DNA of 34,590 nt, taken from contig JAUSID010000106.1 of NCBI GenBank assembly GCA_030648295.1, positions 1 through 34,590 on the forward strand. The letters run 5' to 3'. The DNA comes from Opitutaceae bacterium (GTDB lineage Bacteria; Verrucomicrobiota; Verrucomicrobiia; Opitutales; Opitutaceae). A program made the translations under genes and the position numbers. How positions within the stretch are numbered: the stretch's first letter is position 1; the number at the start of each line of letters is the position of its first letter. This document shows, one piece after another, positions 815 through 24,502 of the stretch. The notes under the pieces were generated by a model that saw only the letters and a list, made by a program, of their open reading frames with translations, made no database searches and was not told the DNA's origin.

Positions 815-3331
815 TCACCGTTCTCCCGGTTCCACGAACGTCCACGAAACCGCGCCGCGCTGGGTCGAGCCGACGGCGAAGTGGCCGGTGAGCCGCTGGC
901 CGGCGAACGCGAGCGTTCCGCTTTCGGCGTGCGACATGACGTAATCGGTTCCGTCCGCGGTTTCGACCGTGAGGATCCCGGCCGGATCGACCAGTGTCAC
1001 CTGGCGCACGAATGCCGCCACCCCTTCGTGGGCCTCGAACACCGTGATGAATGTCCGCGCCGCATCACCCTCCGTCCGGCGCACGATGTAGGGCAGCGTC
1101 GCGCCGAGGTCCGAATTCCTCCAGTCCCGCTGGCCCCAGCCATCGGCGACGAATGCGCGCTCGCCCTTCTGGCCGACGTTCCACGCCATGCAGTTCATCT
1201 CGCCATTCTTCCAGGTTGCCCGCCAGACGCCGGGTTCGCCGGCCGCGCACACATTGCCGAAGTCGTAGAACTTGGGCGATGTCGCGGGCGCGAAGCTCGC
1301 GCCGTCGAATTCCGCCGCCTTCACGGCCGCGTGATACACGAAGTCCTGGCGCTGGCCGCCGGCGACGCGGAAAAAATCGACGACATAATTGCGGCCGCCA
1401 CCGTGGTCGATGATCGCCGAGGTGCGGCGGTAGAGTTTCGCCCCGGGATACGCGCGCGACGACGCCTCCATGACCTTCACGTGCGCGGAGGTGCGGAAAA
1501 GCAATACGTCACCGCCGCGCTCCTTCGTCACCTGCTCCTTCTCGTCGATCAGCACGGTGTTGTGCGCGACCGTTCGCGTGGTCTGACTTTTCCGCGGGTG
1601 GTCCCACAGGTAACCGAGATCCGAGAGGACCTCCGTGCCATGCTTGGCGTAATACAGGTTGAGGCTGTCCAGATGGTGGTGACCGCCCCAGTGACTCGCG
1701 CTCAACAGCAGCAGGCTCTCGCGACCGTCGTTGCCCGTGCGCAGATGCCCGATGCGCAATTCGGGCGCGCACCAGTCGGGGAGCCGCAGCGGCGGAGCCG
1801 GTTTTTCCTCCAGGCCCGGCTCACGGTAATAGAGCGCCACCGGCACGTGGCTGCGCGTGAGCCCGCGCCCCGAGGTTTCCTTCAGCAGCGACAGGTATTC
1901 CGGATGCTCCGGGTAATTTGCCACCATCAGCTCGACGAAGTGGCTGCCGAGACCCGAACTCGGATAGGAGTCGGCGAACGGCGGATACCGGAGGTTGCCT
2001 TGCAGCCCCTTGAAACACGCCTCCCACGCGCGGCCGTAACTGGTACCATGATACAGGTCGACACCGTCGAGCCGCTGGCCGGACGCATCGCGGTAGCCCG
2101 GCGGATCGGAATAGCCGCGGAGCGCCTGCGGCAGATCCCAGATGTTGCCCAGCGTCATCATCGCGTAGGCGGGCGACTCCGACGTGGTGCCGTCGGGCAG
2201 AAACCAGCCATCGACGGTGCGTTGAAATCCCTCCCAGCCGAAACGCACGAGTCGGGGATGCCCGACGCAGAGGCCAACGAGCGCCGCGGCCGTGCGGTTG
2301 CCCACGGACTTGTTGTTGATCTGCTTGTCCGCCACCAGGAGTACGGTGCTCTCGAGCAGTAGATCGCGCTCGATCTTTTCGCGCTCATCGTCCGCGTAGA
2401 GCGGCCGCCCCTCGGCGCCGTGCGCCGTGCAGGTGAAATCGTACGCCTCGACCATTTTGCGGACGAAACCCGATTCCTGCCCGCCGCCCGTCGCCCGGCC
2501 CGCGGTCCAGTAACCGGTGTGCAGCCGGCGATCCGGCTGGTTCGGCGGGGGACACAGTTCCGGCTCGGGCAGCTGGTTGATGAACTCCGCCGCGACGCGG
2601 GCATCCATGTCCGCGTACTCGCCATACCCGGTATGCACGAGCCAGCCCGGATAACACGCGGCGAAGCGCAGCAGGATCAGCCGGACTCCGGCGGCGTATT
2701 CAGTTTTCCCTGTCAGCAGGTATGCCTCCGCCATCGAGCGGGCCAGGCTGGACATGAAACCGACTTTCCGCGCGCGGATGTTGCCGGTGAAACTCGGGCG
2801 ACCGGTGCGGTAGCTGAAGATCACGAAGGGTTCGCCGCCATAATAGGCCAGCCGCTGCGACTTTCGCGTCTGCGGCTCGAGCACGACGGTTTCGGGATGG
2901 CGCTCGTTCGGATAGATGGTGTGACAGACCTCGCACGTGAGTTGATCAGGCGACGTCACGTGCCAGTTCCACATCCCGTGCGGATGAACGGGCTTGCCCG
3001 ACTCACGGCAGGCGGGGCAGGGCGTGAACTTCGAGTCGCCCGGCGTGGTTTCCGGAATCATCAGGGCGAGGAACTCCGGCGTGAGCCGGGCGAGATACGT
3101 GCGGGAGTTTTGCTCCAGGCCCGCCAGGTGGCTCCGGGCCCACGCGTAACGCTGGAGGTTCTCGCGCGCGCGGGCGAGGTCCGCCGGCTTGAGCGCGCCG
3201 CTCGGGTGCTGCACGGTGCCCCGATAGCTTTGCCAGTCGGACCAGTCGAACAGCGGCTCGGCCGCGGCGGCGATCGACGCGAGCAGCACGGGCGCAAAAA
3301 TTCCACCGCGAAAAATCCTGGAGGTGATCAT
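815..3331 (-). CDS. Heparinase II/III-like polysaccharide lyase, exported
   Basis: An 838-residue protein when started at Met 3331 (MITSRIFRGG). This start gives a signal peptide cleaved near residues 23-25 (IAAAA-EPL). The frame stays open upstream to 3583, but that extension runs through the tandem repeat at 3361-3587 and would bury the signal peptide. Residues 50-450 are the helical toroid expected of heparinase/alginate-lyase-like enzymes, with an NNKSVGNRTA stretch around 339-348. Residues about 540-700 carry the family signature GGHHHLDSLNLY (549-560) and AHNTVLID (589-596) of the C-terminal beta-sandwich. Two cysteine pairs, C105/C108 (CPAC) and C133/C136 (CEVC), suggest a structural zinc site near the N-terminus. 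The family cleaves uronic-acid-containing polysaccharides by beta-elimination; the actual substrate is unknown. The gene is not clearly in an operon. Confidence 0.85.
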   Translation of the reverse strand: MITSRIFRGGIFAPVLLASIAAAAEPLFDWSDWQSYRGTVQHPSGALKPADLARARENLQRYAWARSHLAGLEQNSRTYLARLTPEFLALMIPETTPGDSKFTPCPACRESGKPVHPHGMWNWHVTSPDQLTCEVCHTIYPNERHPETVVLEPQTRKSQRLAYYGGEPFVIFSYRTGRPSFTGNIRARKVGFMSSLARSMAEAYLLTGKTEYAAGVRLILLRFAACYPGWLVHTGYGEYADMDARVAAEFINQLPEPELCPPPNQPDRRLHTGYWTAGRATGGGQESGFVRKMVEAYDFTCTAHGAEGRPLYADDEREKIERDLLLESTVLLVADKQINNKSVGNRTAAALVGLCVGHPRLVRFGWEGFQRTVDGWFLPDGTTSESPAYAMMTLGNIWDLPQALRGYSDPPGYRDASGQRLDGVDLYHGTSYGRAWEACFKGLQGNLRYPPFADSYPSSGLGSHFVELMVANYPEHPEYLSLLKETSGRGLTRSHVPVALYYREPGLEEKPAPPLRLPDWCAPELRIGHLRTGNDGRESLLLLSASHWGGHHHLDSLNLYYAKHGTEVLSDLGYLWDHPRKSQTTRTVAHNTVLIDEKEQVTKERGGDVLLFRTSAHVKVMEASSRAYPGAKLYRRTSAIIDHGGGRNYVVDFFRVAGGQRQDFVYHAAVKAAEFDGASFAPATSPKFYDFGNVCAAGEPGVWRATWKNGEMNCMAWNVGQKGERAFVADGWGQRDWRNSDLGATLPYIVRRTEGDAARTFITVFEAHEGVAAFVRQVTLVDPAGILTVETADGTDYVMSHAESGTLAFAGQRLTGHFAVGSTQRGAVSWTFVEPGER

Positions 3332-3360
3332 GGCACGAGCGGCGACCAGACCGCCGGATC

Positions 3361-3587
3361 GCCGCGAAGTGGATACGAGCCTCATGCGATCATCAAGGCC
3401 GCTGACGACGTTGGCGGCATGACGATGGCTCTTCTGGACGCTGGGCTTGCGCAGTAGCGCAAACCTGACGCCCGCTGGATTGCCGCGAAGTGCATGCGAG
3501 CGCCGCACGGGCATCAATACCGCTGCACCCGTTTGCCGCACAACGATTCCTGGCTTGGACCCTGGGTTTGCGCAGCAGCGCAAACCC
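3361..3587. repeat. Two tandem ~105-bp repeat units, each ending in a strong palindrome
   Basis: Unit 1 (3361-3465) and unit 2 (3482-3587) both start with GCCGCGAAGTG and share interspersed similarity along their length. Each ends in a hairpin. In unit 2 the arms GGGTTTGCGC (3564-3573) and GCGCAAACCC (3578-3587) are perfectly complementary around AGCA. In unit 1 GGGCTTGCGC pairs with GCGCAAACC with one G-T. The repeats fill the divergent gap between the lyase and the DUF1638 operon. A look-alike palindrome occurs at 31334-31356. Confidence 0.75.
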
Positions 3588-12838: not shown

Positions 12839-12862
12839 ACTACCGGAATTCCGGTAGTTTTT
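12839..12862 (+). terminator. Intrinsic terminator after larA-like gene
   Basis: A perfect 20-base palindrome ACTACCGGAATTCCGGTAGT (12839-12858) runs directly into TTTT. It ends the larA-like transcript and isolates the defence island that starts just downstream. Confidence 0.85.
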
Positions 12863-13013
12863 GTTCGAATTCACCCTTTCCACTCGCGCGCATCCGGTTT
12901 CAACTTCGGCGCTGCTCGTCTCCAGCGAGTTGGTCCAGCCGATCGACGGTCCGGCAGCTGCCGCACAAACGCGGTTTTTCAAGTTCCCGCCATTTATCTC
13001 GCAATTCATCCGC

Positions 13014-13214
13014 ATGGCCACCCGCTCCCGCACCTCCAACGGCCCCGCAAACTCGTCCACTGCGCTTGGCTTCGAGGCGACGCTCCGGTTCGGCACTGAC
13101 GAGCTTCGCAACAACACGGACGCGTCGGAATACAAGCATGTGGTGTCTGGGCTCACCTTCCACATACCCATTTTCGAATCGTTCGGGGAACACCGCACTA
13201 CTCCGGGTACATGA
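13014..13214 (+). pseudogene. Remnant of type I restriction HsdM subunit (N-terminal fragment)
   Basis: A 66-residue reading frame whose middle (LGFEATLRFGTDELRNNTDASEYKHVVSGL) matches the well-known N-terminus of HsdM, usually LGFEAKLW...[25 protein letters not shown]. After HVVSGL the sequence diverges and stops, so the methyltransferase domain is missing. A real HsdM has about 500 residues. The stop codon TGA overlaps the ATG of the helicase gene (13211-13214), so if translated it would be coupled to it. The frame is open upstream to 12861, but that part looks non-coding. It is best read as the scar of a replaced type I system; a small functional leader ORF is the alternative. Confidence 0.6.
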
Positions 13215-16060
13215 CCCTCACCGATTACCACGCGAAGTACTTTGCCTATGAGCTAACCAAACGCTGTCCGTCCGACAGCCTCGAAAAATTGGCCGGGGCG
13301 GTTGCGGGCGCACAGGTGGACCTGAACCCTCATCAAGTGGATGCGGCACTTTTCGCTTTCACCTCTCCTCTTTCCAAGGGAGCGCTGCTTGCCGACGAAG
13401 TTGGTCTTGGGAAGACCATCGAGGCTGGGTTGGTGCTTTCCCAAAAATGGGCAGAACGGAAGCGTCGGATTCTCATCATCGTCCCGTCGAATCTCCGCAA
13501 GCAGTGGCATCAGGAGCTGACAGAGAAATTTTTCCTACCTTGTGAGATCTTGGAGACGAAGTCCTACAACGCGCGGATCAAGGTGGGTAATTTTCGCCCG
13601 TTTGAGACCAAGGACACCATCGTTATCTGCTCTTACCAGTTCGCCCGAAACAAGGCCAAGGACGTCGCGGAGACCGTATGGGATCTCGTGGTGATGGACG
13701 AGGCGCATCGCCTCCGAAATGTCTACAAGCCCTCCAACATCATCGCCAACACGCTCAAGCTGGCGCTGGCCAACAAGCACAAGCTCCTGCTCACGGCCAC
13801 GCCCCTCCAGAACTCGCTGCTCGAGCTCTTCGGACTCGTCAGCTTCATCGACGAGTATACCTTTGGCGATCTGAAGAGCTTCCGCGAGCAGTTCGCCCAC
13901 CTCGATCAGGAGCAGGTCTTTCAGACCCTGAAAACCCGGCTCGCGCCGATCTGCCACCGCACGCTCAGGCGCCAGGTCACAGCTTACATTCCGTTCACCA
14001 AGCGCCATCCGATTCTCGAGGAATTTACCCCGGAGGAAAGCGAGGACCGGTTGTACGAGCTGGTATCGGAGTACCTGCGGCGGGACAACCTGCAGGCCCT
14101 TCCGTCCAGCCAGCGCACGCTGATGACGCTCGTTCTCCGCAAGCTGCTCGCGTCCTCGACATTCGCCATCGCCGGTGCCCTCGAATCCATTTCCAATCGA
14201 CTCAAGGCGCAGATTAAAAAGCAGGAGCCTGGCGAGTCGCTGGAGGAGGAACTCGACCACGACTACGAGGCGCTCGACGAGACCGCCGAGGAATGGACGG
14301 AGGAGGCGCCGGCTGAACCTATCTCCGATGCTACTCGCGCAGCTATCGAGGCTGAGATTGCCGACCTCGATTCCTTCGCGAGCCTCGCCACTTCCATCAC
14401 GCACAACGCGAAGGGCCTGGCCTTGCTCAAGGCACTGACTGTCGTCTTCAGCAAAGCGAAGGAGCTGGGCGCCGCGGAAAAGGCCATCATCTTCACCGAA
14501 TCGCGGAAAACGCAGAGTTACCTCTTGCGTCTGCTGGCCGACAGCCCCTTTGCCGACGGCATTGTCCTCTTTAACGGCTCCAACACCGACGACCGCTCCA
14601 AGCTCATCTACGCCGCATGGCAGGAGAAACACCAGGGCACCGACCGCGTCTCCGGCTCCAAGAGTGCCGATATGCGATCCGCCCTCGTGGATTACTTTCG
14701 CGAGGGGGGCCGCATCATGATTGCCACCGAGGCCGGGGCGGAAGGCATCAACCTCCAGTTTTGCTCGCTCGTCGTGAATTATGACCTGCCGTGGAATCCC
14801 CAGCGGATCGAGCAGCGCATCGGCCGCTGCCATCGTTACGGACAGAAGCACGACGTGGTGGTGGTCAATTTCCTCAACCGCAAGAACGCCGCGGATAAAC
14901 GGGTTTACGAACTGCTCTCGGAAAAATTCAAGCTATTCGAGGGCGTTTTCGGCGCCAGCGATGAGGTGCTCGGGGCCATCGAATCGGGCGTCGATTTTGA
15001 GAAACGGATCAACGACATCTACCAGCGCTGCCGGAAGACCGAGGATATCAAGGTCGCCTTCGACCAACTCCAGCTCGAGCTGAGCTGGGAAATCAACGAG
15101 GCGATGACCATTACCCGCCGAAAACTGCTGGAGAATTTTGACGATGAGGTCCGCGACAAACTGAAGATCCGCGACGAAGATTCGAGGGCATCCCTGAATC
15201 GTTTTGAACGGCGCTTGATGCAACTGACCCGGCATGAATTGGGCACCCGGGCGGAGTTTATCGGCGATTCGTCCTTCCAGCTCAAGTCATGTGAGTTTCC
15301 CGGCGCGATTCCGCTCGGGCTGTATGAATTGCCCCGGCGCTCGGGCGAAGCGCATCTTTACCGCCTGAATCACCCGCTGGCTGAGGCTATTCTCGCCCAG
15401 GCCAAGAGTCGCGAGCTGCCACTCCAGGAAGTCCAGTTCGGCTATGCGGATTACGACGGGAAGATTTCAGTTCTGCAGTCGTTCCTCGGCAAAGGTGGCT
15501 GGCTGATGCTTTCGAGCTTCACCGTGGAAGCCCTCGACCAGTCGGAAGACCACCTGCTGTTTGCGGCGCTTACCGATGACGGGCAGGTCATCCACGAGGA
15601 AGCCGCAGCGCGGCTGTTCTCGCTCAAGGCCCGGCTCGCGCCTGCGGCGACGACCACCGCTCCCACCGAACTGGAAACTCTTACTCAAAAGCAGCGGGCG
15701 GAGAAACAGCGGACGATCTCCGAGCGCAACGCGAAGTTCTTTGAGGTTGAAGTCGAAAAGCTCGATGGCTGGGCCGAGGATCTGAAACTCACCCTGGAGC
15801 GCGAGATCAAGGATATGGACCGGCAGATCAAGGAAGCCCGCCGCACCGCCAGCACGTCCGCCACCCTTGAGGAAAAACTCGCCGGCCAGAAGCAGATCAA
15901 AGCTCTCGAATCGCAGCGCAACGAGAAGCGCCGCTCGCTCTTCGAGGCGCAGGACAAGGTGGACCAGCGTCGAGAAACCCTGATCGCCGCGATTGAGGGG
16001 AAACTGATCCAAAACGCATCCTCTTCTGCACTTTTCACTATCCGCTGGAGCCTTATCTAG
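13211..16060 (+). CDS. SNF2-type DEAH helicase/ATPase of restriction-associated family
   Basis: A 949-residue protein. The SNF2 motor has Walker A DEVGLGKT (62-69), DEAH (163-166), LTATPLQNS (194-202) and the C-terminal helicase motif QRIGRCHRYGQ (535-545). A charged, acidic insert lies near 335-385. The last ~130 residues (about 815-940) are a long predicted coiled coil rich in E, K, R and Q. The N-terminus (HAKYFAYEL...EKLAGAVAGAQVDLNPHQVDAALFAF) is the standard one for a family found next to DNA methyltransferases in defence islands. It probably translocates on DNA or remodels protein-DNA complexes for the restriction set encoded downstream. The next ORF starts 6 bp after its stop. Class 1 DISARM also uses a SNF2 protein, but its partner genes are absent. 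Confidence 0.88.
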   Translation: MTLTDYHAKYFAYELTKRCPSDSLEKLAGAVAGAQVDLNPHQVDAALFAFTSPLSKGALLADEVGLGKTIEAGLVLSQKWAERKRRILIIVPSNLRKQWHQELTEKFFLPCEILETKSYNARIKVGNFRPFETKDTIVICSYQFARNKAKDVAETVWDLVVMDEAHRLRNVYKPSNIIANTLKLALANKHKLLLTATPLQNSLLELFGLVSFIDEYTFGDLKSFREQFAHLDQEQVFQTLKTRLAPICHRTLRRQVTAYIPFTKRHPILEEFTPEESEDRLYELVSEYLRRDNLQALPSSQRTLMTLVLRKLLASSTFAIAGALESISNRLKAQIKKQEPGESLEEELDHDYEALDETAEEWTEEAPAEPISDATRAAIEAEIADLDSFASLATSITHNAKGLALLKALTVVFSKAKELGAAEKAIIFTESRKTQSYLLRLLADSPFADGIVLFNGSNTDDRSKLIYAAWQEKHQGTDRVSGSKSADMRSALVDYFREGGRIMIATEAGAEGINLQFCSLVVNYDLPWNPQRIEQRIGRCHRYGQKHDVVVVNFLNRKNAADKRVYELLSEKFKLFEGVFGASDEVLGAIESGVDFEKRINDIYQRCRKTEDIKVAFDQLQLELSWEINEAMTITRRKLLENFDDEVRDKLKIRDEDSRASLNRFERRLMQLTRHELGTRAEFIGDSSFQLKSCEFPGAIPLGLYELPRRSGEAHLYRLNHPLAEAILAQAKSRELPLQEVQFGYADYDGKISVLQSFLGKGGWLMLSSFTVEALDQSEDHLLFAALTDDGQVIHEEAAARLFSLKARLAPAATTTAPTELETLTQKQRAEKQRTISERNAKFFEVEVEKLDGWAEDLKLTLEREIKDMDRQIKEARRTASTSATLEEKLAGQKQIKALESQRNEKRRSLFEAQDKVDQRRETLIAAIEGKLIQNASSSALFTIRWSLI

Positions 16061-16066
16061 ACGCTT

Positions 16067-16243
16067 ATGGATACCCCATCGCAGGCACTCGCAGCAAAAA
16101 TTACTGACCGGCTGGTTCGAGAGGGACTGATAACCGTAGCCGCAGCCAAGAAGATTCAGACCCAACTTGCGGAGGGAAAACTGCGGGCGGAGGACTGGCG
16201 GCTTCCCGTTGAACTGGCCGAAAGGAAGGAAGCCAAATCATGA
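16067..16243 (+). CDS. 58-residue small protein in defence operon
   Basis: ATG at 16067, 6 bp after the helicase stop, and a TGA that overlaps the next start (ATGA, 16240-16243). The product, MDTPSQALAAKITDRLVRE... to ...LAERKEAKS, looks like two or three amphipathic helices with a central KKIQTQLAEGKLRAEDWRL segment, charged and without membrane segments. The tight packing on both sides supports real translation. I do not recognise a family. A small adaptor between helicase and ATPase, or a regulatory or antitoxin-like peptide, would fit; neither can be shown from sequence alone. Confidence 0.7.
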   Translation: MDTPSQALAAKITDRLVREGLITVAAAKKIQTQLAEGKLRAEDWRLPVELAERKEAKS

Positions 16244-18552
16244 GCACCATCGGACTGAGGAAACTCACCATTGAGCACCTGCGTGGCTCTGTAGTTCCTT
16301 TCGCGCTTCCGTTTGAGACGGCCAAGAAGCTCACGGTTGTTTACGGCGAGAACGGCACCGGGAAGTCAACGATCTGCGATGCGTTCGAGTTTCTTGGCAA
16401 AGGCAAGGTGGGGTCGCTTGAGAACCGTGGCCTCGGCAAGACCAGCAGATACTGGCACTCTCTGGGTAAGAAGCCGGCGGACGTCGCTGTGACATTGGAG
16501 ACGCAGGATAGCTCCTCATGCCGTGCGACAATTGTGAAAAGCGATGTCGTCGCCAATCCGTTGGCGAAACGCCCACGCGTTGAAGTCCTGCGCCGCGGCC
16601 AGATTCTGGCATTGGTGGAAGCGAAGCCAGGTGATCGTTACGCCGCCATCAGCCGGTTCATCGACGTGTCTGGCGTTGAAACTTCGGAAGCGACTCTTCG
16701 CCAATTGATCCGCGACCTCGCGGGCAATCGGGATCTTGCCGTGGCCCGTGTGCTGGAAAATCAGGATGCGATCCGCCAGTTCTGGGATTCAGCCGGGGAG
16801 CCGGGTGGCAGTTCGCTGGCTTGGGCGAACATCGAATCGAAGCGCGATCCGAACTCATCGGACGCTGAGGTTACCGCATTAGCCGCGCTCCAGGCGGCCT
16901 ACTCCCGGCTCGGCGACTACCCGGCAAATCTCAAGGCGGCGAAAGAAGCTTTGAACACAGCGAAAACTGCGGTGGACGCGGCGCGACTGGAAGCCCAGGC
17001 GTGCGTCCAGACGATTGCGGCCGATGCCGGCGAGGTGATGGACGTGCTGGAATCAGCCCGTGCATATCTGCATAAACATCCTGTGCCGGTAGTTTGCCCG
17101 CTTTGCGAAAGTTCTGAGAAAGTGGACGGACTAGCTCGGCGAATCACTGAGCGCCTTGATTCATTTTCTACTCTCCAGACTGCGCAGGCGAAGACCAAAA
17201 CGACCGGCGCTAATTTGCTGCGCGCTGAGCAGCAGTTGGACGCGTTAAGACTGAGCGCGAAGAAGCATGCCGACGCATTTGAGAAGGCACGCACGGGATT
17301 TACTTGGTCGACGGACATTTCGTTGCCGGCGGCATCGGCCGCTCAAGACATCGAGGCTATTGACAGTTGGCTCGCCGGGTCAGCCCACCTGCCAGCTGAA
17401 TGGAAAGAGGCGGAAACGGTTCGACAGGACAAAAAGCAATTCGTCGGAGCGTTGAAGCGGGCCCTCAAGACCTACACGGAGAACGCCCAAGCCCAGAAAG
17501 AACTCGACCTTCTGCTTCCGAGACTAACCGCCGCGCTGGAAATCGTAGAAGACGAACGCCGCCGTTTCACCGACAGCATTCTTGTCAAAATTGCCGGTGA
17601 GGTTGGCCGTGTTTACGAACTCGTTCACCCTGGCGAAGGGTTGAACAAGATCAGTCTCGAACTCGACCCCGACAAACGTGCCTCCCTTGAAATCGGCGCC
17701 AGCTTTTGCGGCCAGGCGGGCACGCCACCTCAGGCATATTTCAGCGATTCGCACCTCGATACCCTGGGACTCTGCGTGTTCTTGGCACTCGCCGCAATGG
17801 ACGGCCCGGAAAACAATATTTTGGTGCTTGATGACGTCCTTGCTAGTGTTGATGAGCCGCACGTGGAGCGCCTCATCGAGATGCTCTATGCCGAGGCGAT
17901 CAAGTTCCGGCATTGCCTCATCACGACGCATTACCGCCCGTGGAAGCAAAAGCTTCGTTGGGGATGGCTGAGGAACGGCCAGTGCCAGTTCATCGAATTG
18001 TCGAAGTGGACGAATCAGCAGGGAATGACGCTCATTCGCAGCATCCCGGATGTCGAACGCCTCCGCGCTTTGTTGGCTGAGACGCCGCCCGATCCCCAAC
18101 TCGTGTGCGCCAAGGCAGGTGTTATCCTTGAAGCGGCGTTGGATTTCCTCACCCAACTCTACGAATGCGCGGTTCCCCGGCGGCCGGGCGGCCTTTACAC
18201 CCTCGGCGATCTTCTGCCGTCGATTGACAAGAAGCTGCGCAACGCCCTCCAAGTCGAAGTTCTCGTAAAAGATGCCTCAGGCGTGTCCGGCTACCAGACT
18301 AGGAGCCTGACGCCGATCCTCGACGAACTGATTCGCATCGCCCAGGCCCGAAACGTATTTGGCTGCCACTTCAATGCCCTGTCGTTCGAATTGCTGGACA
18401 GCGATGCGCTCGGCTTTGGTCAGAAAGTGGTGGAGTTGATCGAGATCCTCGCCGATCCCGATGCCGGTTGGCCGAGGAATTCGAAGTCTGGGAAATACTG
18501 GGCAAACTCAGGCGAGACCCGCCGCCTGCATCCGCTACAACAACCCACTTGA
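16240..18552 (+). CDS. SMC/Rad50-like ABC ATPase with hook-like CPLC and C-terminal HEPN-like motif
   Basis: A 770-residue protein. It has Walker A GENGTGKST (36-44), helical arms at about 210-280 and 295-450 separated by CPLC (286-289) that resembles a zinc-hook half-site, an ABC signature region SDSHLDTLG (502-510), Walker B ILVLDD (527-532) and an H-loop TTHY (562-565). After the ATPase, about 170 helical residues remain. They contain RNVFGCH (R704 to H710), which fits the R-[polar]-x4-H form of HEPN ribonucleases. ABC ATPase plus C-terminal HEPN is the layout of anticodon nucleases PrrC and RloC, RloC also having a zinc hook; the HEPN call is my inference from a short motif. It is coupled to the small ORF upstream, and mod follows after 7 bp. 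A pure DNA-repair-like SMC role is the alternative. Confidence 0.8.
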   Translation: MSTIGLRKLTIEHLRGSVVPFALPFETAKKLTVVYGENGTGKSTICDAFEFLGKGKVGSLENRGLGKTSRYWHSLGKKPADVAVTLETQDSSSCRATIVKSDVVANPLAKRPRVEVLRRGQILALVEAKPGDRYAAISRFIDVSGVETSEATLRQLIRDLAGNRDLAVARVLENQDAIRQFWDSAGEPGGSSLAWANIESKRDPNSSDAEVTALAALQAAYSRLGDYPANLKAAKEALNTAKTAVDAARLEAQACVQTIAADAGEVMDVLESARAYLHKHPVPVVCPLCESSEKVDGLARRITERLDSFSTLQTAQAKTKTTGANLLRAEQQLDALRLSAKKHADAFEKARTGFTWSTDISLPAASAAQDIEAIDSWLAGSAHLPAEWKEAETVRQDKKQFVGALKRALKTYTENAQAQKELDLLLPRLTAALEIVEDERRRFTDSILVKIAGEVGRVYELVHPGEGLNKISLELDPDKRASLEIGASFCGQAGTPPQAYFSDSHLDTLGLCVFLALAAMDGPENNILVLDDVLASVDEPHVERLIEMLYAEAIKFRHCLITTHYRPWKQKLRWGWLRNGQCQFIELSKWTNQQGMTLIRSIPDVERLRALLAETPPDPQLVCAKAGVILEAALDFLTQLYECAVPRRPGGLYTLGDLLPSIDKKLRNALQVEVLVKDASGVSGYQTRSLTPILDELIRIAQARNVFGCHFNALSFELLDSDALGFGQKVVELIEILADPDAGWPRNSKSGKYWANSGETRRLHPLQQPT

Positions 18553-18559
18553 GACGATT

Positions 18560-20212
18560 GTGACCAAGAAGCAAAAACTCGAACTGGCTTGGATTGGAAA
18601 GGAGAACCGGCCCCGGCTGGAGCCGCGCATTCTCCTCGAAGACCCGGAGAAGTCGTATCACGCGGCGCATCGGGTGACGGATCACGACCGGTTCGATAAC
18701 CGGCTCATCTTCGGCGACAATCTCCTCGCTCTCAAAGCGCTCGAACAGGAACTCACGGGGAAGATTCGATGCATCTATATCGACCCCCCTTACAACACTG
18801 GCAGCGCATTTCAGCAGTATGACGACGACCTGGAACATTCCACGTGGCTTTCGCTTATTCGCGACCGTGTCGAAATATTGCACAGGCTCCTAAGACCGGA
18901 CGGCAGTCTGTGGGTCAGCTTAGACGACAGCGAAGCCCACTATTTCAAAGTGATGGTTGATGAAATTTTCGGGCGGCAGAACTTCATCGCGGACATCTCT
19001 TGGCGAAAGCGCGATGGTCCGCCGAATGACCGACGGATGGGAAGCGTGCATGAGCATGTTCTCCTTTGGGGCCACACAAAGCTAAGCAGCTCAAAGAAAA
19101 CGTTGGCGGAAGAGGCATTCAACCTCATGCCCCGAACCGAAAAAGCGAATGCCGAGTACCGGGTGCATCCGGAGCCGGATGGTCCAGATCCGCGAGGTCC
19201 ATTCCGAAAGATTGATACTACGGCTCATGGCAAAGGGGGTCGCTTTGTCCAAAGTCTTTTCTACGCGATACAAAATCCGTATACGAAAGAAGACGTATGG
19301 CCGCGTAAGGGGACCTGCTGGCGTCACAATCGCGGGGAAATGAAGCGGCTCCAAGCGGACCGCCGGCTTTATTGGGGCGTCAATGGCACCGCGACCACTC
19401 CGATGCGGAAGCTTTTTATTTCGGAGGCAAAGCAAGGCATGTGTACCCCCACTATTTGGGACGATGTGGGATTAAACCAACATGCAACGGGCGAAATGGA
19501 AGATTTGTTTGGCGAAAAAGCGTTCTTCGAGACTCCAAAACCTGAGGGTCTGCTTCAGCGAATCATTCATGTCGCGTCTAATCCCGGCGACTTAGTCCTC
19601 GATTCCTTTGCCGGCTCCGGCACGACAGGCGCCGTGGCCCACAAGATGGGCCGGCGCTGGATAATGGTGGAACTGGGCGAGCATTGTCACACGCACATCA
19701 TCCCCCGGCTGAAGAAAGTGATCGACGGCGCGGACGCGGGTGGGATCACGGACGCCGTGGGCTGGAAGGGCGGCGGCGGGTTCCGCTACTACCGGCTCGC
19801 GCCGTCGCTGCTCACGCAGGACAAGTGGGGCAACTGGGTTATTTCGAAGGAATACAACGCGCCCATGCTGGCGGAGGCAGTGTGCAAATTGGAGGGGTTC
19901 ACCTACGCGCCCAGCGATACGGTTTATTGGCAGCAGGGCCGTTCCACGGAGCGGGATTTTCTCTACGTCACCACGGCCAGCCTGAGCCACGACCAACTCC
20001 AGCAATTGAGCGACGAGGTCGGGCCCGAGCGAACGTTGCTCGTGGTCTGCTCCGCCTTCCGCGGCCGGAAGGAAGGCTACCCGAACCTGACCGTGAAGAA
20101 GATTCCCAAGGCTGTCCTCACCCGCTGCGAGTGGGGTCACGACGATTACAGCCTGAAGGTGGAGAACCTGCCGAAGGCCCCGCCTCCGGCGGGGCAGATG
20201 GAGCTGATTTAG
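18560..20212 (+). CDS. Type III-like (beta class) site-specific DNA methyltransferase, Mod
   Basis: A 550-residue protein if begun at GTG 18560 (VTKKQKLELAW), 7 bp after the ATPase stop. An ATG at 18461 would force a 92-bp overlap and adds residues unlike the family. The catalytic motif DPPYNTG (75-81) precedes the AdoMet-binding motif DSFAGSGTTG (348-357), the order of beta-class adenine/cytosine-N4 methyltransferases such as type III Mod. The long section between them (about 140-330) is the likely target recognition domain. It is visibly poorer in GC than the sequence after it: several 60-base blocks are about 45-52% by hand count, against about 75% in a block after 19741. That suggests exchange of this domain. 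It should methylate the recognition site and, with Res, form the restriction complex. Confidence 0.9.
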   Translation: MTKKQKLELAWIGKENRPRLEPRILLEDPEKSYHAAHRVTDHDRFDNRLIFGDNLLALKALEQELTGKIRCIYIDPPYNTGSAFQQYDDDLEHSTWLSLIRDRVEILHRLLRPDGSLWVSLDDSEAHYFKVMVDEIFGRQNFIADISWRKRDGPPNDRRMGSVHEHVLLWGHTKLSSSKKTLAEEAFNLMPRTEKANAEYRVHPEPDGPDPRGPFRKIDTTAHGKGGRFVQSLFYAIQNPYTKEDVWPRKGTCWRHNRGEMKRLQADRRLYWGVNGTATTPMRKLFISEAKQGMCTPTIWDDVGLNQHATGEMEDLFGEKAFFETPKPEGLLQRIIHVASNPGDLVLDSFAGSGTTGAVAHKMGRRWIMVELGEHCHTHIIPRLKKVIDGADAGGITDAVGWKGGGGFRYYRLAPSLLTQDKWGNWVISKEYNAPMLAEAVCKLEGFTYAPSDTVYWQQGRSTERDFLYVTTASLSHDQLQQLSDEVGPERTLLVVCSAFRGRKEGYPNLTVKKIPKAVLTRCEWGHDDYSLKVENLPKAPPPAGQMELI

Positions 20213-20366
20213 CCGCAAAAGAACGCAAGGAACGCAAAGAGCATGACGACGACGAACAGCATACTGCGCGACGGCCTGTGCCTGCGCGGCACCGGGTCCG
20301 CCGGAGGATGGCTGGCGCCATTGCTCCCGGATTTCTCTGCGCTCTTTGCGCTCCTTCGCGGCCCAG
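20213..20366. repeat. Dispersed inverted-repeat element between mod and rhuM
   Basis: The left end, from AGCCGCAAAAGAACGC through GCAAGGAACGCAAAGAGC (20213-20241), pairs with the right end GCGCTCTTTGCGCTCCTTCGCGG (within 20334-20363). It is the same family as the inverted repeat at 667-736. It begins immediately after the mod stop codon and ends a few bases before the rhuM start, so the whole 158-bp gap is repeat. This is the only gap of any size in an otherwise tightly packed operon. Confidence 0.75.
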
Positions 20367-20370
20367 CCCC

Positions 20371-21426
20371 ATGACCCAGGCACCGGAAAACAAGTCCGCC
20401 ATCATTCTCTACCAGACCGAGGATGGTCGCACGCGCGTGCAATGCCGGTTTGAGAACGAGACAGTTTGGCTGACGCAGAAGCTGATGGCCGAGTTGTTCC
20501 AGATCGGCGTCAACACGGTCAACTACCACCTGAAGGCCATTTTTGCCGAAGGTGAGCTTCGACCGGAGGCAACTATTCGACGTTATCGAATAGTTCAAAA
20601 CGAGGGGGGCCGCCAGATCGCCCGGGAGGTGGAGCACTACAATCTGGATGCCATCCTCGCAGTCGGTTTCCGGGTGCGCAGCCATCGCGGCACGCAGTTC
20701 CGGCAGTGGGCCATCGGGCGCTTGAACGAGTATCTGGTGAAGGGTTTCACCATGGATGACGAGCGGCTCAAGAACCCGCCGGGCAAGGGGCAGAAGGACT
20801 ACTTCGACGAGCAACTGGAGCGCATCCGCGACATCCGCTCCTCCGAGCGGCGCTTCTACCAGAAGGTGCTGGATATTTACGCCACGAGCGTGGACTACAC
20901 GCCAAATACGGAGATGTCGCAGCGATTCTTCGCCACGGTGCAGAACAAGATGCACTGGGCGGCGCACGGGCACACGGCGGCGGAGGTGATCCATGCAAGG
21001 GTGGATGCGGGCCAGCCTTTCATGGGGCTGAAGACGACACGGCCTGGCGGCATCATCCGCAAGGAGGACGTAGCCATCGCCAAGAACTATCTCGATCCGG
21101 AGGAACTCGGCACGCTGAACCGAGTCGTGAACGCCTACATCGAATTCGCCGAGCTACGGGCGCTGCAACGCAAAGTGATGACGATGCGCGACTGGATCGC
21201 CAAGCTGGATGAGTTCCTGAAACTCTCCGAGCACGAACTACTCGACCACGCCGGCACAATTACTGCCGAACAGGCGAAGACGAAGGCGGAACTGGAATAC
21301 GAGCGCTATAGGGCGTTTCTGGACACGCAGCCGCGGCTGGTGGACGCCGATTTCGAGAAGGTTGCGAAAGAGCTGAAGAAACTTCCCCAGCCCAAGCCTC
21401 CGAAACCGGGGAAGAAAAGGCTATGA
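20371..21426 (+). CDS. RhuM family protein
   Basis: A 351-residue protein starting at ATG 20371. The N-terminal part (ETVWLTQKLMAELFQIGVNTVNYHLKAIFAEGEL, about 26-60, then FRVRSHRGTQFRQWA, about 105-120) is the hallmark of the virulence RhuM family. It looks like a helix-turn-helix/KilA-N-type DNA-binding unit. The C-terminal half is helical and charged and ends in a lysine- and proline-rich tail. First named from a Salmonella pathogenicity island, the family is now mostly seen beside restriction systems. Its molecular function is unknown; transcription control or DNA recruitment is plausible. The stop overlaps the res start (ATGA, 21423-21426), tying it to the restriction operon. Confidence 0.88.
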   Translation: MTQAPENKSAIILYQTEDGRTRVQCRFENETVWLTQKLMAELFQIGVNTVNYHLKAIFAEGELRPEATIRRYRIVQNEGGRQIAREVEHYNLDAILAVGFRVRSHRGTQFRQWAIGRLNEYLVKGFTMDDERLKNPPGKGQKDYFDEQLERIRDIRSSERRFYQKVLDIYATSVDYTPNTEMSQRFFATVQNKMHWAAHGHTAAEVIHARVDAGQPFMGLKTTRPGGIIRKEDVAIAKNYLDPEELGTLNRVVNAYIEFAELRALQRKVMTMRDWIAKLDEFLKLSEHELLDHAGTITAEQAKTKAELEYERYRAFLDTQPRLVDADFEKVAKELKKLPQPKPPKPGKKRL

Positions 21427-24107
21427 ATCGCCACGTCAACGCCATCGCCGGACGGTTGAGCCTGCGCCAGCCGCAGCGCACGTCGCTCGAAATTCTCGAC
21501 CGGGTCACCGAGATCGTGCCGCCGCGCAAGGCGGCGGACCTCGCGGCGGCCCAGGCGATCATTCGCAGCGAGTATCCGACAGTGACCGATTTCGAACGGG
21601 AATTTCCTTCGCTCTGCTTCGCGCTGGCGACGGGAGTGGGCAAGACGCGACTGATGGGTGCGTTCATCAGCTACCTGCACCTGGCCCACGGGATAAACAA
21701 TTTCTTCGTCCTGGCGCCCAACCTTACGATCTACAACAAGCTGATTACCGATTTCACGCCCAACACACCGAAGTATGTGTTCAAGGGCATCGCGGAGTTT
21801 GCCACGGACGCGCCGGAGATCATCACCGGGGACAATTACGAGGCCAAGGCAGGCACGCTTTTCGATCAGGTGCTGCGCTGCAAGGTCAACATCTTCAATA
21901 TCTCGAAGATCAATTCCGAGGTGCGCGGCGGAAAATCGCCCCGGATCAAACGGCTCTCGGAATACATCGGGGAAAGTTATTTCGAATATCTCGCCGGGTT
22001 GCCGGATCTCGTGCTCATCATGGACGAGTCGCACCGATACCGGGCCAGTGCGGGAGTGCGGGCCATCAATGAACTCAAGCCGGTGCTGGGGTTGGAACTG
22101 ACGGCAACGCCGTTCATCGAAGGTCCGAAGGGGCCGGTGGCCTTCAAAAATGTCATCTGCGACTACCCATTGGCGAGGGCGATGCAGGACGGCTTCGTGA
22201 AGGAGCCGGCAGTGGCGACGCAGAAGAACTTCGACCCAAGTCGGTTTTCCGCCGCCGAAATCGAAAAGATCAAGCTGGAGGATGGCATCCGACTGCACGA
22301 GGACGTGAAAGTGCGGCTCGAAACGTATGCACGGGAGACGGAGCAGAAAATCGTGAAGCCCTTCGTTCTGGTGATCGCGCGCGACACGACGCACGCCGCG
22401 GAGTTGCTCAAGCTGATCCAGTCCGACCGTTTCTTCGAAGGCCGCTACAAGGAAAAGGTCATCCAGGTGGATTCCAGCAAGACCGGCGCCGAGGAGGAGG
22501 AAATGATCGAGCGGCTACTCAAGGTGGAGCACACCGACGAGCCGACGGAGATCGTGATTCACGTGAACATGCTCAAGGAGGGCTGGGACGTAACTAATCT
22601 CTATACGATCATCCCACTCCGGGCGGCGAACGCACGCACCCTCATCGAACAGTCAATTGGACGCGGTCTCCGCTTGCCCTACGGCAAGCGCACGGGTGTC
22701 AGTGCGGTGGATCGGCTCAGCATTGTCGCGCACGATCGGTTCCAGGAGATCGTCGATGAAGCCAACAAGCCCGACTCCGCGATTCGACTGGAGAAAATCA
22801 TCCTCGAACCGCCGGGTCAGCATCAGAAGCTGGCCACGGTGGTCTCACAATCGGGAGTGCTGGCCCAGATTGGCGGCACGTCTCTGGAATCCAGTTCCAC
22901 GACCATCACCCAGTCCGGCACGCCGACAGCCAAGCCGGCCTTTGCGACCGCAGCAGAGCAGAGAGTGGCCAAGGCAACCTATGATGTGCTTGCAGGCTTC
23001 GAGCACCTGGGTTCGTCGGGGTCGCTGCTTTACCCGGAGGTGCAGAGCAAGATTGTCGCCAGGGTTGAGGAAGCGCTGGCGCCGCTGCAGGGCGAGTTGG
23101 CGGCCGTGACCGAGGCCGTCAATGTCGCAGCCGTAGTCGCGAAGACCACAGAAATTGTCGTCCAGCAAACCATCGATATTCCCCGCATCCTCGTGGTGCC
23201 GAAGGGCGAAGTGACGAGTGGGTTCAGCCCGTTCACGCTTGAAGCCAACTCGATCCATTACCAGCCGGTCGAACGTGACATCCTGATCCAAAAGCTTCGC
23301 ACGCACGAGCAGGAGACCCTGACGACTGCGGGCGGCAGGCAGACCGAATTTCGAATCGAAGATTACATCGTCCGCGCATTGATCGATTTCGACGACGTCT
23401 CTTACGACCACCACGCGGACCTGCTCTACGACTTGGCCGGCCAAATGGTGAAGCACCTGCGCGGCTACTTGAAGGATCAGGGCGACGTCCTGAATGTTCT
23501 ACAATACTATCAGCGGCAGCTCGCGGAGTTTATCCACGCGCAGATGCAGGCCCACCACTGGGAGAAGGCGGCGGGCTATGAAGTCGTGGTTAACAAGGGC
23601 TTCACCGCCTTGAAACCGCTGGCGTTCACGGCACCGGCGGACGAAGCGGTCCATCACTTCCGGCATCCCGTGGTCGACAAGTCGAAAATCGCGCAGATGG
23701 TTTTCGGTGGCTTTCATCGATGCCTTTATCCAGTGCAAAAATTCCAATCCGACACCGAACGTGTGCTGGCCGTGATTCTCGATCGGGACGCCGACAAGTG
23801 GTTCAGGCCCGCTCGGACCCAATTCCAGATCTTCTATAAATGGGGCGCCGATCAGCATGAATACCAGCCCGATTTCGTAGCGGAAACCGCGGACGCCATC
23901 TACATGCTGGAGCCAAAAGCGCGTAAAGATATGGAAGACGGTGAAGTCCTCGCAAAGAAGGATTCAGCCGTCCGCTGGTGCCAGCTCGCGACCGATCATA
24001 CAGCCAAGAACAACGGCAAACCGTGGAAGTATCTCCTGATTCCGCACGACGCGATTGCAGAGAACATGAGCATCAAAGGACTGACGGCACAGTTTTTGGT
24101 GAAATGA
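21423..24107 (+). CDS. Type III restriction enzyme Res subunit (helicase plus PD-(D/E)XK nuclease)
   Basis: An 894-residue protein. The SF2 motor has Walker A ATGVGKT (69-75), DESH (201-204), LTATPF and IEQSIGRGLRLPYG. The C-terminal nuclease shows PD (816-817) followed by E830-x-K832 (MLEPKA), so the cleavage site looks intact. The length is normal for Res. In known type III systems Res with Mod uses ATP to cut DNA that carries two unmethylated sites. Here it is separated from mod by rhuM and is translationally coupled to rhuM instead. It is the last gene of the island; no intrinsic terminator is visible after it, only repeats. Confidence 0.92.
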   Translation: MNRHVNAIAGRLSLRQPQRTSLEILDRVTEIVPPRKAADLAAAQAIIRSEYPTVTDFEREFPSLCFALATGVGKTRLMGAFISYLHLAHGINNFFVLAPNLTIYNKLITDFTPNTPKYVFKGIAEFATDAPEIITGDNYEAKAGTLFDQVLRCKVNIFNISKINSEVRGGKSPRIKRLSEYIGESYFEYLAGLPDLVLIMDESHRYRASAGVRAINELKPVLGLELTATPFIEGPKGPVAFKNVICDYPLARAMQDGFVKEPAVATQKNFDPSRFSAAEIEKIKLEDGIRLHEDVKVRLETYARETEQKIVKPFVLVIARDTTHAAELLKLIQSDRFFEGRYKEKVIQVDSSKTGAEEEEMIERLLKVEHTDEPTEIVIHVNMLKEGWDVTNLYTIIPLRAANARTLIEQSIGRGLRLPYGKRTGVSAVDRLSIVAHDRFQEIVDEANKPDSAIRLEKIILEPPGQHQKLATVVSQSGVLAQIGGTSLESSSTTITQSGTPTAKPAFATAAEQRVAKATYDVLAGFEHLGSSGSLLYPEVQSKIVARVEEALAPLQGELAAVTEAVNVAAVVAKTTEIVVQQTIDIPRILVVPKGEVTSGFSPFTLEANSIHYQPVERDILIQKLRTHEQETLTTAGGRQTEFRIEDYIVRALIDFDDVSYDHHADLLYDLAGQMVKHLRGYLKDQGDVLNVLQYYQRQLAEFIHAQMQAHHWEKAAGYEVVVNKGFTALKPLAFTAPADEAVHHFRHPVVDKSKIAQMVFGGFHRCLYPVQKFQSDTERVLAVILDRDADKWFRPARTQFQIFYKWGADQHEYQPDFVAETADAIYMLEPKARKDMEDGEVLAKKDSAVRWCQLATDHTAKNNGKPWKYLLIPHDAIAENMSIKGLTAQFLVK

Positions 24108-24209: not shown

Positions 24210-24249
24210 AATCCGCAATCCGAAATCCGAAATCCGAAATCCGAAATCG
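24210..24249. repeat. Short-period repeat, AATCCGAA type
   Basis: Consecutive units AATCCGCA, ATCCGAA, ATCCGAA and so on, 7-8 bases each, without spacers. The same motif returns at 24413-24460, 165 bases away. It cannot be CRISPR since no unique spacers exist. Confidence 0.8.
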
Positions 24250-24284
24250 CACGGGCCCACGCTCCCAGGCCGGAGCTGGTTTGC

Positions 24285-24310
24285 GTAGCAGCCGCTGGCA
24301 ACGAGGCTGG
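24285..24310. repeat. REP-like GTAGCAGCCG...GAGGCTGG element, copy 1
   Basis: GTAGCAGCCGCTGGCAACGA followed by GGCTGG. CAGCC and GGCTG can pair. A close copy is at 32952-32976, over 8 kb away. Confidence 0.6.
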
Positions 24311-24412
24311 CAATTCCTCGGCGAAGTGCGCATCCGACGGGCTTTCGACACGTGCTTTTCCGAACGTTGAAACCTTGCGGGCGGGACGCCCGCGCTCCCA
24401 GGCCGATCCGCC

Positions 24413-24502
24413 GTTCCGCAATCCGCAATCCGCAATCCGAAATTCCGCAATCCGAAATTCCGCCTCCCGCATCCCGCCTCCCGCATCCAAATCCAAATCG
24501 AA
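24413..24502. repeat. Short-period repeat, ATCCGCA/ATTCCGAA/CCCGCATC type
   Basis: A 90-base tract that passes from CAATCCG units through AATTCCG units to CCTCCCGCATC and finally ATCCAAATC units. It ends one base before the stop codon of the DUF1501 gene on the other strand. Confidence 0.75.

Follow-up and report, generated by a model that had tools for sequence, protein, structure and literature searches.

A type III restriction operon with an SNF2 motor and a replaceable gene cassette between motor and methyltransferase

Introduction

Why is a type III restriction–modification (R-M) pair encoded in one operon with an SNF2-type motor, a 58-residue protein and a Rad50-like ATPase, and which of these genes belong together? 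The question is raised by a 34,590-nucleotide stretch of DNA from an Opitutaceae bacterium (assembly GCA_030648295.1, contig JAUSID010000106.1; the whole stretch is hereafter the window), in which genes for an SNF2 protein, the 58-residue protein, the ATPase, a methyltransferase (Mod), a RhuM protein and a restriction subunit (Res) follow one another on the + strand at 13211-24107. A preliminary description of this DNA took the six genes for a single unit. Comparison with related loci leads to another partition, which is the conclusion that we hold most firmly: motor and cutter form a constant frame, and the guard placed between motor and mod, together with the specificity, are the exchanged parts.

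Results

The outer genes of the operon are assigned from protein profiles. Mod (18560-20212, 550 residues) matches MTase_III at 9e-204 in PADLOC and N6_N4_Mtase at 7e-46 in Pfam (157 bits versus a cut-off of 26.7), carries a DPPY motif and is most variable at its centre, the first 50 residues of the frame aside; its sequence identifies it as a type III DNA methyltransferase with a variable central region. It begins with a GTG codon, and the Mod of a related locus (L006) begins with identical residues after an ATG. Res (21423-24107, 894 residues) matches REase_III at 1.7e-224 in PADLOC and ResIII at 2e-21, past the cut-off, in Pfam, and a C-terminal PD...ExK signature (D817, E830, K832) was read by eye, features that assign it as a type III restriction subunit with a superfamily 2 (SF2) helicase and a PD-(D/E)xK nuclease. 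The SNF2 gene (13211-16060, 949 residues), which starts about 200 bp 3′ of the operon border placed at 13014 by the preliminary description, encodes a protein with an SNF2-rel match of 5e-37 in Pfam and the sequences GLGKT, DEAH, TATP and QRIGRCHRYGQ, which we take to be SNF2 motifs. It is classified as a DrmD/RapA-like SF2 translocase. DrmD models are its best matches in both PADLOC (697 bits, against 182 bits for HmaA) and NCBIfam, and the 697.9 bits obtained in NCBIfam lie under the curated DISARM_DrmD_b cut-off of 950, so the protein is DrmD-like yet not a DISARM DrmD.

To define the neighbourhood, we scanned genomes with a profile of the ATPase, which returned at least 49 loci; the 24 strong ones (L001-L024) were counted and 25 weaker ones left out. 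Neighbouring genes were called by tblastn with the window proteins, and the 58-residue gene also with a hidden Markov model (HMM). SNF2 lies upstream of the ATPase gene in 22 of the 23 loci with upstream sequence (the exception is L023), mod lies downstream in 17 of the 20 loci with downstream sequence (L008, L021 and L023 lack it), and res is present in 16 of the 17 mod-bearing loci, the stretch of the remaining one (L010) ending earlier. The 58-residue gene precedes the ATPase gene in 20 of 23 loci, a count that combines 16 of the 19 HMM-scanned loci with L011, L016, L019 and L021, found by tblastn; the HMM missed the 30%-identity loci L017, L020 and L023. Between SNF2 and the 58-residue gene stands an AIPR gene in L001, L008 and L016, and an unassigned open reading frame (ORF) in L021. 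Of the 15 loci in which SNF2, ATPase, mod and res are all present, 2 (L002 and L020) contain RhuM, and linkage is accordingly tight for the 58-residue gene and the ATPase and loose for RhuM. The contigs that carry the ATPase belong to Verrucomicrobiota, Pseudomonadota, Desulfobulbus, a Deltaproteobacteria metagenome-assembled genome and Chloroflexota. The preliminary description had proposed a search for the six families together in other genomes: the order SNF2, 58-residue gene, ATPase, mod, res is kept in distant bacteria, and RhuM accompanies it rarely. In L021, the N-terminal part of the ATPase is joined straight to the end of res (2238-3545), a junction that either a deletion within the locus or the assembly could have produced.

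The ATPase also leaves this setting. It was found on five Bacteroidota plasmids at 29-32% identity. In the two inspected, a small ORF lies 5′ of the ATPase gene, and the annotation within 10 kb of it lists neither SNF2, mod nor res. The 58-residue gene accompanies the ATPase there too, as weak counterparts (E 1e-4) on two such plasmids where none of these three genes is nearby, which speaks against the six genes as one unit. On the Hymenobacter and Fibrella plasmids (L106 and L107, 9769-12382), the 58-residue-like gene and the ATPase gene adjoin recombinase genes and are perhaps a portable two-gene module.

The 58-residue ORF (16067-16243) begins after a 6-bp gap behind SNF2. It belongs to a set of 77 proteins (itself included) of 57-58 residues and 62-100% identity among the similar-length proteins compared, and we regard it as a real gene; a SHOCT-like match (E 0.0038) fell under the cut-off. 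The ATPase gene (16240-18552, 770 residues) overlaps it by 4 bp and is followed by mod after 7 bp. Pfam yields six weak SMC/AAA matches for the ATPase; AAA_23 and AAA_21 just pass their cut-offs, and DUF499 is absent among these matches; AAA_13 (PF13166) reaches 27.3 bits, below its cut-off of 36. The best PADLOC match is LmuB at 61 bits, and a match to mad3 is also weak. A full-length structure model, with a mean predicted local distance difference test score (pLDDT) of 74 and a predicted template modelling score (pTM) of 0.45, resembles the heads of SMC, Rad50, LmuB and JetC (22 PDB chains at E ≤0.001). The protein carries motifs that we take to be a Walker A, a Walker B and an H-loop, and a CPLC motif at residues 286-289 (17095-17106), and CP[LV]CE is found in 117 of 120 homologues among the matches listed. 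These features indicate a Rad50/SMC-like ABC ATPase with a zinc-hook motif.

The C-terminal domain of the ATPase (residues 585-770, 17992-18549) is predicted to adopt a HEPN-like fold (pLDDT 80, pTM 0.77) and contains the Rx4-6H HEPN motif as RNVFGCH (residues 704-710, 18349-18369), a candidate active site. Among the matches listed, RN..G.H is present in all 118 homologues of at least 740 residues (64-100% identical), in none of the 118 within residues 1-590 and in none of the reversed sequences. The R, N, G and H are invariant in 21 of 21 C-terminal domains, the others being 33-85% identical to the window domain. On a second look at the structure comparison of the predicted domain, 11 of the 12 best rows were HEPN proteins, some of them presumptively assigned; PrrC and RloC structures were not among these rows, which has no bearing either way. 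Sequence methods returned no HEPN match, neither Pfam on the 21 C-terminal domains nor PDB profile searches, and neither did hhalign against two HepT proteins nor Foldseek. The model and the motif make a HEPN-like, RNA-cutting domain probable. This agrees with the preliminary description, which had combined a type III system and an SNF2 motor with a Rad50-like ATPase bearing a possible RNase domain, and the 58-residue protein and the zinc-hook ABC-HEPN ATPase together represent, as judged from their sequences, a probable new guard family.

Comparison of sister loci shows that this pair is replaceable between SNF2 and mod. Within that stretch, the ATPase is accompanied by AIPR in eight loci (L001, L004, L007, L008, L013, L015, L016 and L024), by MNT and HepT in L010 and by an HNH gene in L020. 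In L086, a near neighbour of the window locus (SNF2 81%), DUF2130 and an OLD-like ATPase replace the ATPase; DUF6119 stands in its place in L087, and DUF2130 with an AAA_13 ATPase in L088. L089 holds an AAA_13 ATPase (2e-156), which we presume to belong to the PrrC/RloC family, with a different type III pair. AAA_15 and a 182-residue ORF precede a type III mod in L090, in a stretch without a res of this family, and Abi_2 occupies the slot in L098, where res is on a separate contig. On plasmids the slot contains IS256, Abi and a small protein (Salmonella), AIPR, a helix-turn-helix (HTH) gene, a small ORF and VapC (Deinococcus), AAA and DUF4276 (Aeromonas) or an unannotated 362-residue frame (Roseomonas), and it is empty on E. 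coli pEC316_2 and on a Cupriavidus plasmid. As these rows were picked through ATPase or SNF2 searches, the frequencies of slot contents are not population frequencies. A second insertion point lies between mod and res and holds RhuM (window, L002, L020), MNT and HepT (L014, Methylomonas sp. LW13) or YhcG (L003). On an SNF2 tree of 38 rows (quick method, LG+G4), at least 5 changes are required to explain the label "58-aa/ABC-HEPN", 4 of them forced by strongly supported branches; shuffled labels need 12.5 on average and none of 500 shuffles was as low as observed. With 5 changes against 12.5, the label is clustered but has been exchanged repeatedly.

The SNF2 and Res genes, which bracket these exchanges, keep company across genomes. 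Among 288 genomes of the phylum, a close SNF2 (E ≤1e-100) is found in 20, a close Res in 13, and 7 have the two together (one-sided Fisher p 3.4e-6). The two genes are on one contig, 3.6-7 kb apart, in the window and three other genomes, and in G048, G145 and G268 they lie near the ends of separate contigs. A close SNF2 is absent from 6 of the 13 Res genomes and a close Res from 13 of the 20 SNF2 genomes; four of the latter were inspected, and in these SNF2 adjoins different type III methyltransferase genes. Of 23 plasmid records with Res, at least 20 also have SNF2, 15 being closely alike Salmonella plasmids. Protein distances, taken with host phylogeny uncontrolled, show that the divergence of SNF2 and Res is correlated (r 0.87, 19 loci). 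The values are r 0.64 for Mod–Res (19 loci), 0.60 for ATPase–Res (16 loci), 0.53 for SNF2–Mod (20 loci) and 0.50 for SNF2–ATPase (17 loci), and the ATPase–Mod correlation is not significant (r 0.31, p 0.06, 17 loci). The SNF2 family also adjoins other type III methyltransferase subfamilies, e.g. PDLC03646 and PDLC03634, in L104, L103, L090 and L089, and may therefore act for more than one lineage of type III systems.

E. coli offers a natural comparison, as one near-identical SNF2 occurs in 29 of 5,426 genomes, eight of which were inspected. Five of the eight loci carry Abi and AIPR, then mod and res. SMN152SH1 has Abi and a 206-residue product at the AIPR position, CFSAN064036 has IS1, a 245-residue Abi and a 69-residue gene in the slot, and in MB46 IS1 and Abi genes are present, while the stretch shown contains neither mod nor res. 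Strains 164 and CFSAN064036 are 97.6% identical in SNF2 and 99.3% in Res, against 69% in Mod, and their DNA cannot be aligned over the middle of mod. Both the 245-residue gene (67%) and the 69-residue gene (58%) of CFSAN064036 match the one Abi of 164 and therefore resemble a copy that has diverged and split; AIPR is present in 164 and not in CFSAN064036. The ends of the E. coli locus are nearly constant, and slot and Mod differ. In several loci a small HTH gene lies 5′ of SNF2 (L126 at 13808-14008, L119 and L123), and NCBI names the one in the E. coli relatives MAD1. That name may have been transferred too widely, since no further MADS-labelled gene occurs in the E. coli stretches examined.

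Within the window, mod and the RhuM gene (20371-21426) are separated by 158 bp (20213-20370), and the RhuM gene overlaps res by 4 bp; apart from that gap the tight, same-direction spacing of the six genes described earlier was borne out. RhuM matches PF13310 at 3e-111 (371 bits versus a cut-off of 33.7) and PADLOC PDC-S05. Given its distribution it is an occasional passenger, an optional extra at the mod–res junction. The gap had been called repeat-filled, and it does contain a 16-nucleotide inverted repeat (20227-20242 and 20341-20356) and a weaker 10-nucleotide one. A dispersed mobile repeat, which we considered, is unsupported: with up to 2 mismatches allowed, a 22-mer from the gap turned up a single time in the 9.1-Mb genome. 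A scan for promoters and terminators gave fewer sites than shuffled sequences.

The operon is likely a horizontally acquired insertion. Among 27 genomes of the genus, the ATPase is found in one, the window's own. No clean empty site was evident in relatives when two flanking genes were searched and listed coordinates compared. Phage records gave no ATPase match at 1e-20 and a single partial SNF2 match, in a 4.5-kb record. G+C, computed over 1-kb windows, is 57-62% in the operon, 61-70% upstream, 65-69% at 25-29 kb and 55-57% at 29-31 kb; low G+C is not specific to the operon because it recurs at 29-31 kb. Pfam named five of ten flanking proteins (lactate racemase LarA, DUF1501, PSCyt/PSD1, a sulfatase and a metallophosphatase), and PADLOC had no match at 1e-5 among ten flanking ORFs, so no second defence gene was seen next to the window copy. 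At the 5′ edge, a short ORF (12861-13214) for which Pfam finds nothing weakly resembles a model of type I methyltransferases (13059-13190, E 0.001) and could be what is left of the N-terminus of an hsdM gene. Directly 3′ of res, tandem repeats (24210-24488) consist of AATCCGA, TCCGCAA and the 14-mer CCGCCTCCCGCATC.

Discussion

We favour, with somewhat better than even confidence, a reading of the locus as type III restriction with an SNF2 motor and an exchangeable abortive guard between motor and mod. Mod would mark its own sites, Res would cut DNA with unmarked sites, and the dedicated SNF2 motor would join in. While the cell is at rest, the ATPase part, the 58-residue partner or both would restrain the HEPN RNase, perhaps on the R-M complex. 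Blocked restriction or accumulating DNA ends would be sensed by the Rad50-like head, upon which the HEPN domain would cut host RNA (tRNA, by analogy with PrrC/RloC), and translation and phage growth would stop. All these activities are inferred, and so are the trigger, the RNA that is cut and the inhibitory role of the 58-residue protein; for the RNase step and the trigger, PrrC/RloC served as the model. The stretch between SNF2 and mod may be a plug-in position, as sister loci hold other genes there, many of abortive-infection or toxin families; since related operons swap the module for other genes, the slot looks like a plug-in for back-up of failed restriction. Our estimate is slightly lowered because the E. 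coli slots differ by a diverged Abi and the loss or gain of AIPR and not by two unrelated guards.

Ordinary packing of defence genes would account for the same layout if SNF2, mod and res were one system and the 58-residue/ATPase pair and RhuM were independent, co-transcribed and functionally unlinked. The Bacteroidota plasmids fit this explanation, as do the many unrelated families in the slot, the lack of a significant ATPase–Mod correlation and the existence of SNF2–mod–res without a slot gene. We nevertheless consider it less likely: the inserts sit within the operon, flanked by one and the same gene pair, mostly with overlaps or short gaps and in distant phyla, SNF2 accompanies nearly all of the closer ATPases, ATPase and Res distances correlate, and the ten flanking ORFs scanned contain no PADLOC match.

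A less probable alternative concerns the guard itself, which could be a DNA-end or DNA-structure sensor that attacks DNA directly with SNF2 and Res, in the manner of SMC, Lamassu or Rad50 proteins, its C-terminal domain binding and not cutting RNA. The resemblance of the full-length model to SMC, Rad50, LmuB and JetC heads and the LmuB match suit such a sensor, and some HEPN-fold proteins, e.g. MtlR, which is row 16 of our structure comparison, are probably non-catalytic according to a survey (PMC3710099). Invariance of the R, N, G and H down to 33% identity fits catalysis better than binding, and Abi and RNase-toxin families are represented among the other genes of the slot several times, which again favours a guard that cuts RNA. 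A decayed or hybrid class 1 DISARM locus is highly improbable, as the best DrmD models (~698 bits) are offset by a score under the DISARM_DrmD_b cut-off, by DrmA, DrmB and DrmC being the best PADLOC model of none of the six genes and unmatched at 1e-5 in the ten flanking ORFs, and by the many loci in which close SNF2 relatives accompany type III mod and res; we rejected DISARM membership.

Other named systems were rejected likewise. PADLOC, suggested by the preliminary description for classification, placed the genes in different systems when its protein models were applied. The ATPase has weak LmuB and mad3 matches, and we do not assign the operon to Lamassu (LmuB at 61 bits, no LmuA among the PADLOC matches listed for the six genes) or to MADS (no labelled gene besides MAD1 in the E. 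coli stretches examined). Membership of Hma/DUF499 (PMC8565338) is excluded by the HmaA and DrmD scores and the lack of DUF499 in the ATPase. The accessible text on ARMADA, which is YprA-centred (PMC12458937), and on BREX-related (PMC12839542), CoCoNuT (PMC11090510) and Dnd-related systems (PMC10853773) also led us to reject these. The ATPase shares with PrrC/RloC a Rad50-like ABC ATPase, a C-terminal HEPN-type motif and an R-M operon setting, and its CPLC corresponds to the CPxC zinc hook of RloC. It differs in scoring under the PF13166 cut-off, in a C-terminal region that is not recognised as that family and in its 58-residue partner.

The frame itself has a precedent in a 2021 study, whose authors we take to be Murray et al. 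It describes two strains, E. coli NCTC86 and Acinetobacter sp. H, in which mod is preceded by an additional gene for a helicase-like ATPase, with Eco86II (E. coli NCTC86) and BspHIV as type III systems of this kind, and it reports such a gene close to type III R-M in >500 genomes (Murray 2021, PMC8259958). The extra ATPase is dispensable for methylation and was undetected by mass spectrometry in a partially purified cutting enzyme (PMC8259958). The third group of that study shares with the window a homologous SNF2-type SF2 gene upstream of mod and res, and differs in that, in the text accessible, SNF2 is directly 5′ of mod with no slot gene, whereas in the window the 58-residue and ABC-ATPase genes lie between; the published system makes N4-methylcytosine (m4C; PMC8259958). 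Aligned along its full length, the window SNF2 shares 45% identity with the SNF2 protein encoded upstream of mod in E. coli B4103-1, and the B4103-1 locus recurs at 99.9% identity in NCTC86. The Mod proteins of window and B4103-1 are 25% alike over 376 aligned columns and the Res proteins have no significant BLAST match, so the E. coli loci represent another type III subfamily.

ABC-HEPN proteins and RhuM have been proposed as an R-M back-up (Anantharaman et al. 2013, PMC3710099). The neighbourhoods of that survey, in which R-M occurs with ABC-HEPN and RhuM or DOC, are multi-level loci of the kind seen in the window, and the accessible text on R-M loci describes no separate SNF2 motor by type III genes, no 58-residue gene and no exchange slot (PMC3710099). 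AIPR has been found with type III R-M (Makarova et al. 2012, PMC3506569). The preliminary description knew of no named system with this gene set. As far as the accessible texts go, the SNF2–mod–res frame (PMC8259958) and R-M with ABC-HEPN and RhuM (PMC3710099) are already in print, and the insert of the 58-residue gene and zinc-hook ATPase and the SNF2–mod exchange slot were not found described in the open-licence literature, although subscription papers or supplements could hold a description.

We tentatively extend the guard reading to a wider proposal, to which we give rather less than even weight: SNF2–type III R-M may be a widespread modular platform with constant SNF2 and Res and with exchangeable Mod specificity and guard cassette, and 58-residue/ABC-HEPN may be a new portable guard family, acting with R-M or stand-alone, whose RNase would be released when motor or cutter fails. 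If true, this would explain why the extra helicase is dispensable for cutting, its job being sensing and guard control, and would offer a candidate function for the unexplained gene that PMC8259958 reports beside type III R-M in >500 genomes. Restriction backed by programmed dormancy would then become testable at one operon position, where related loci, near-identical E. coli ones among them, differ.

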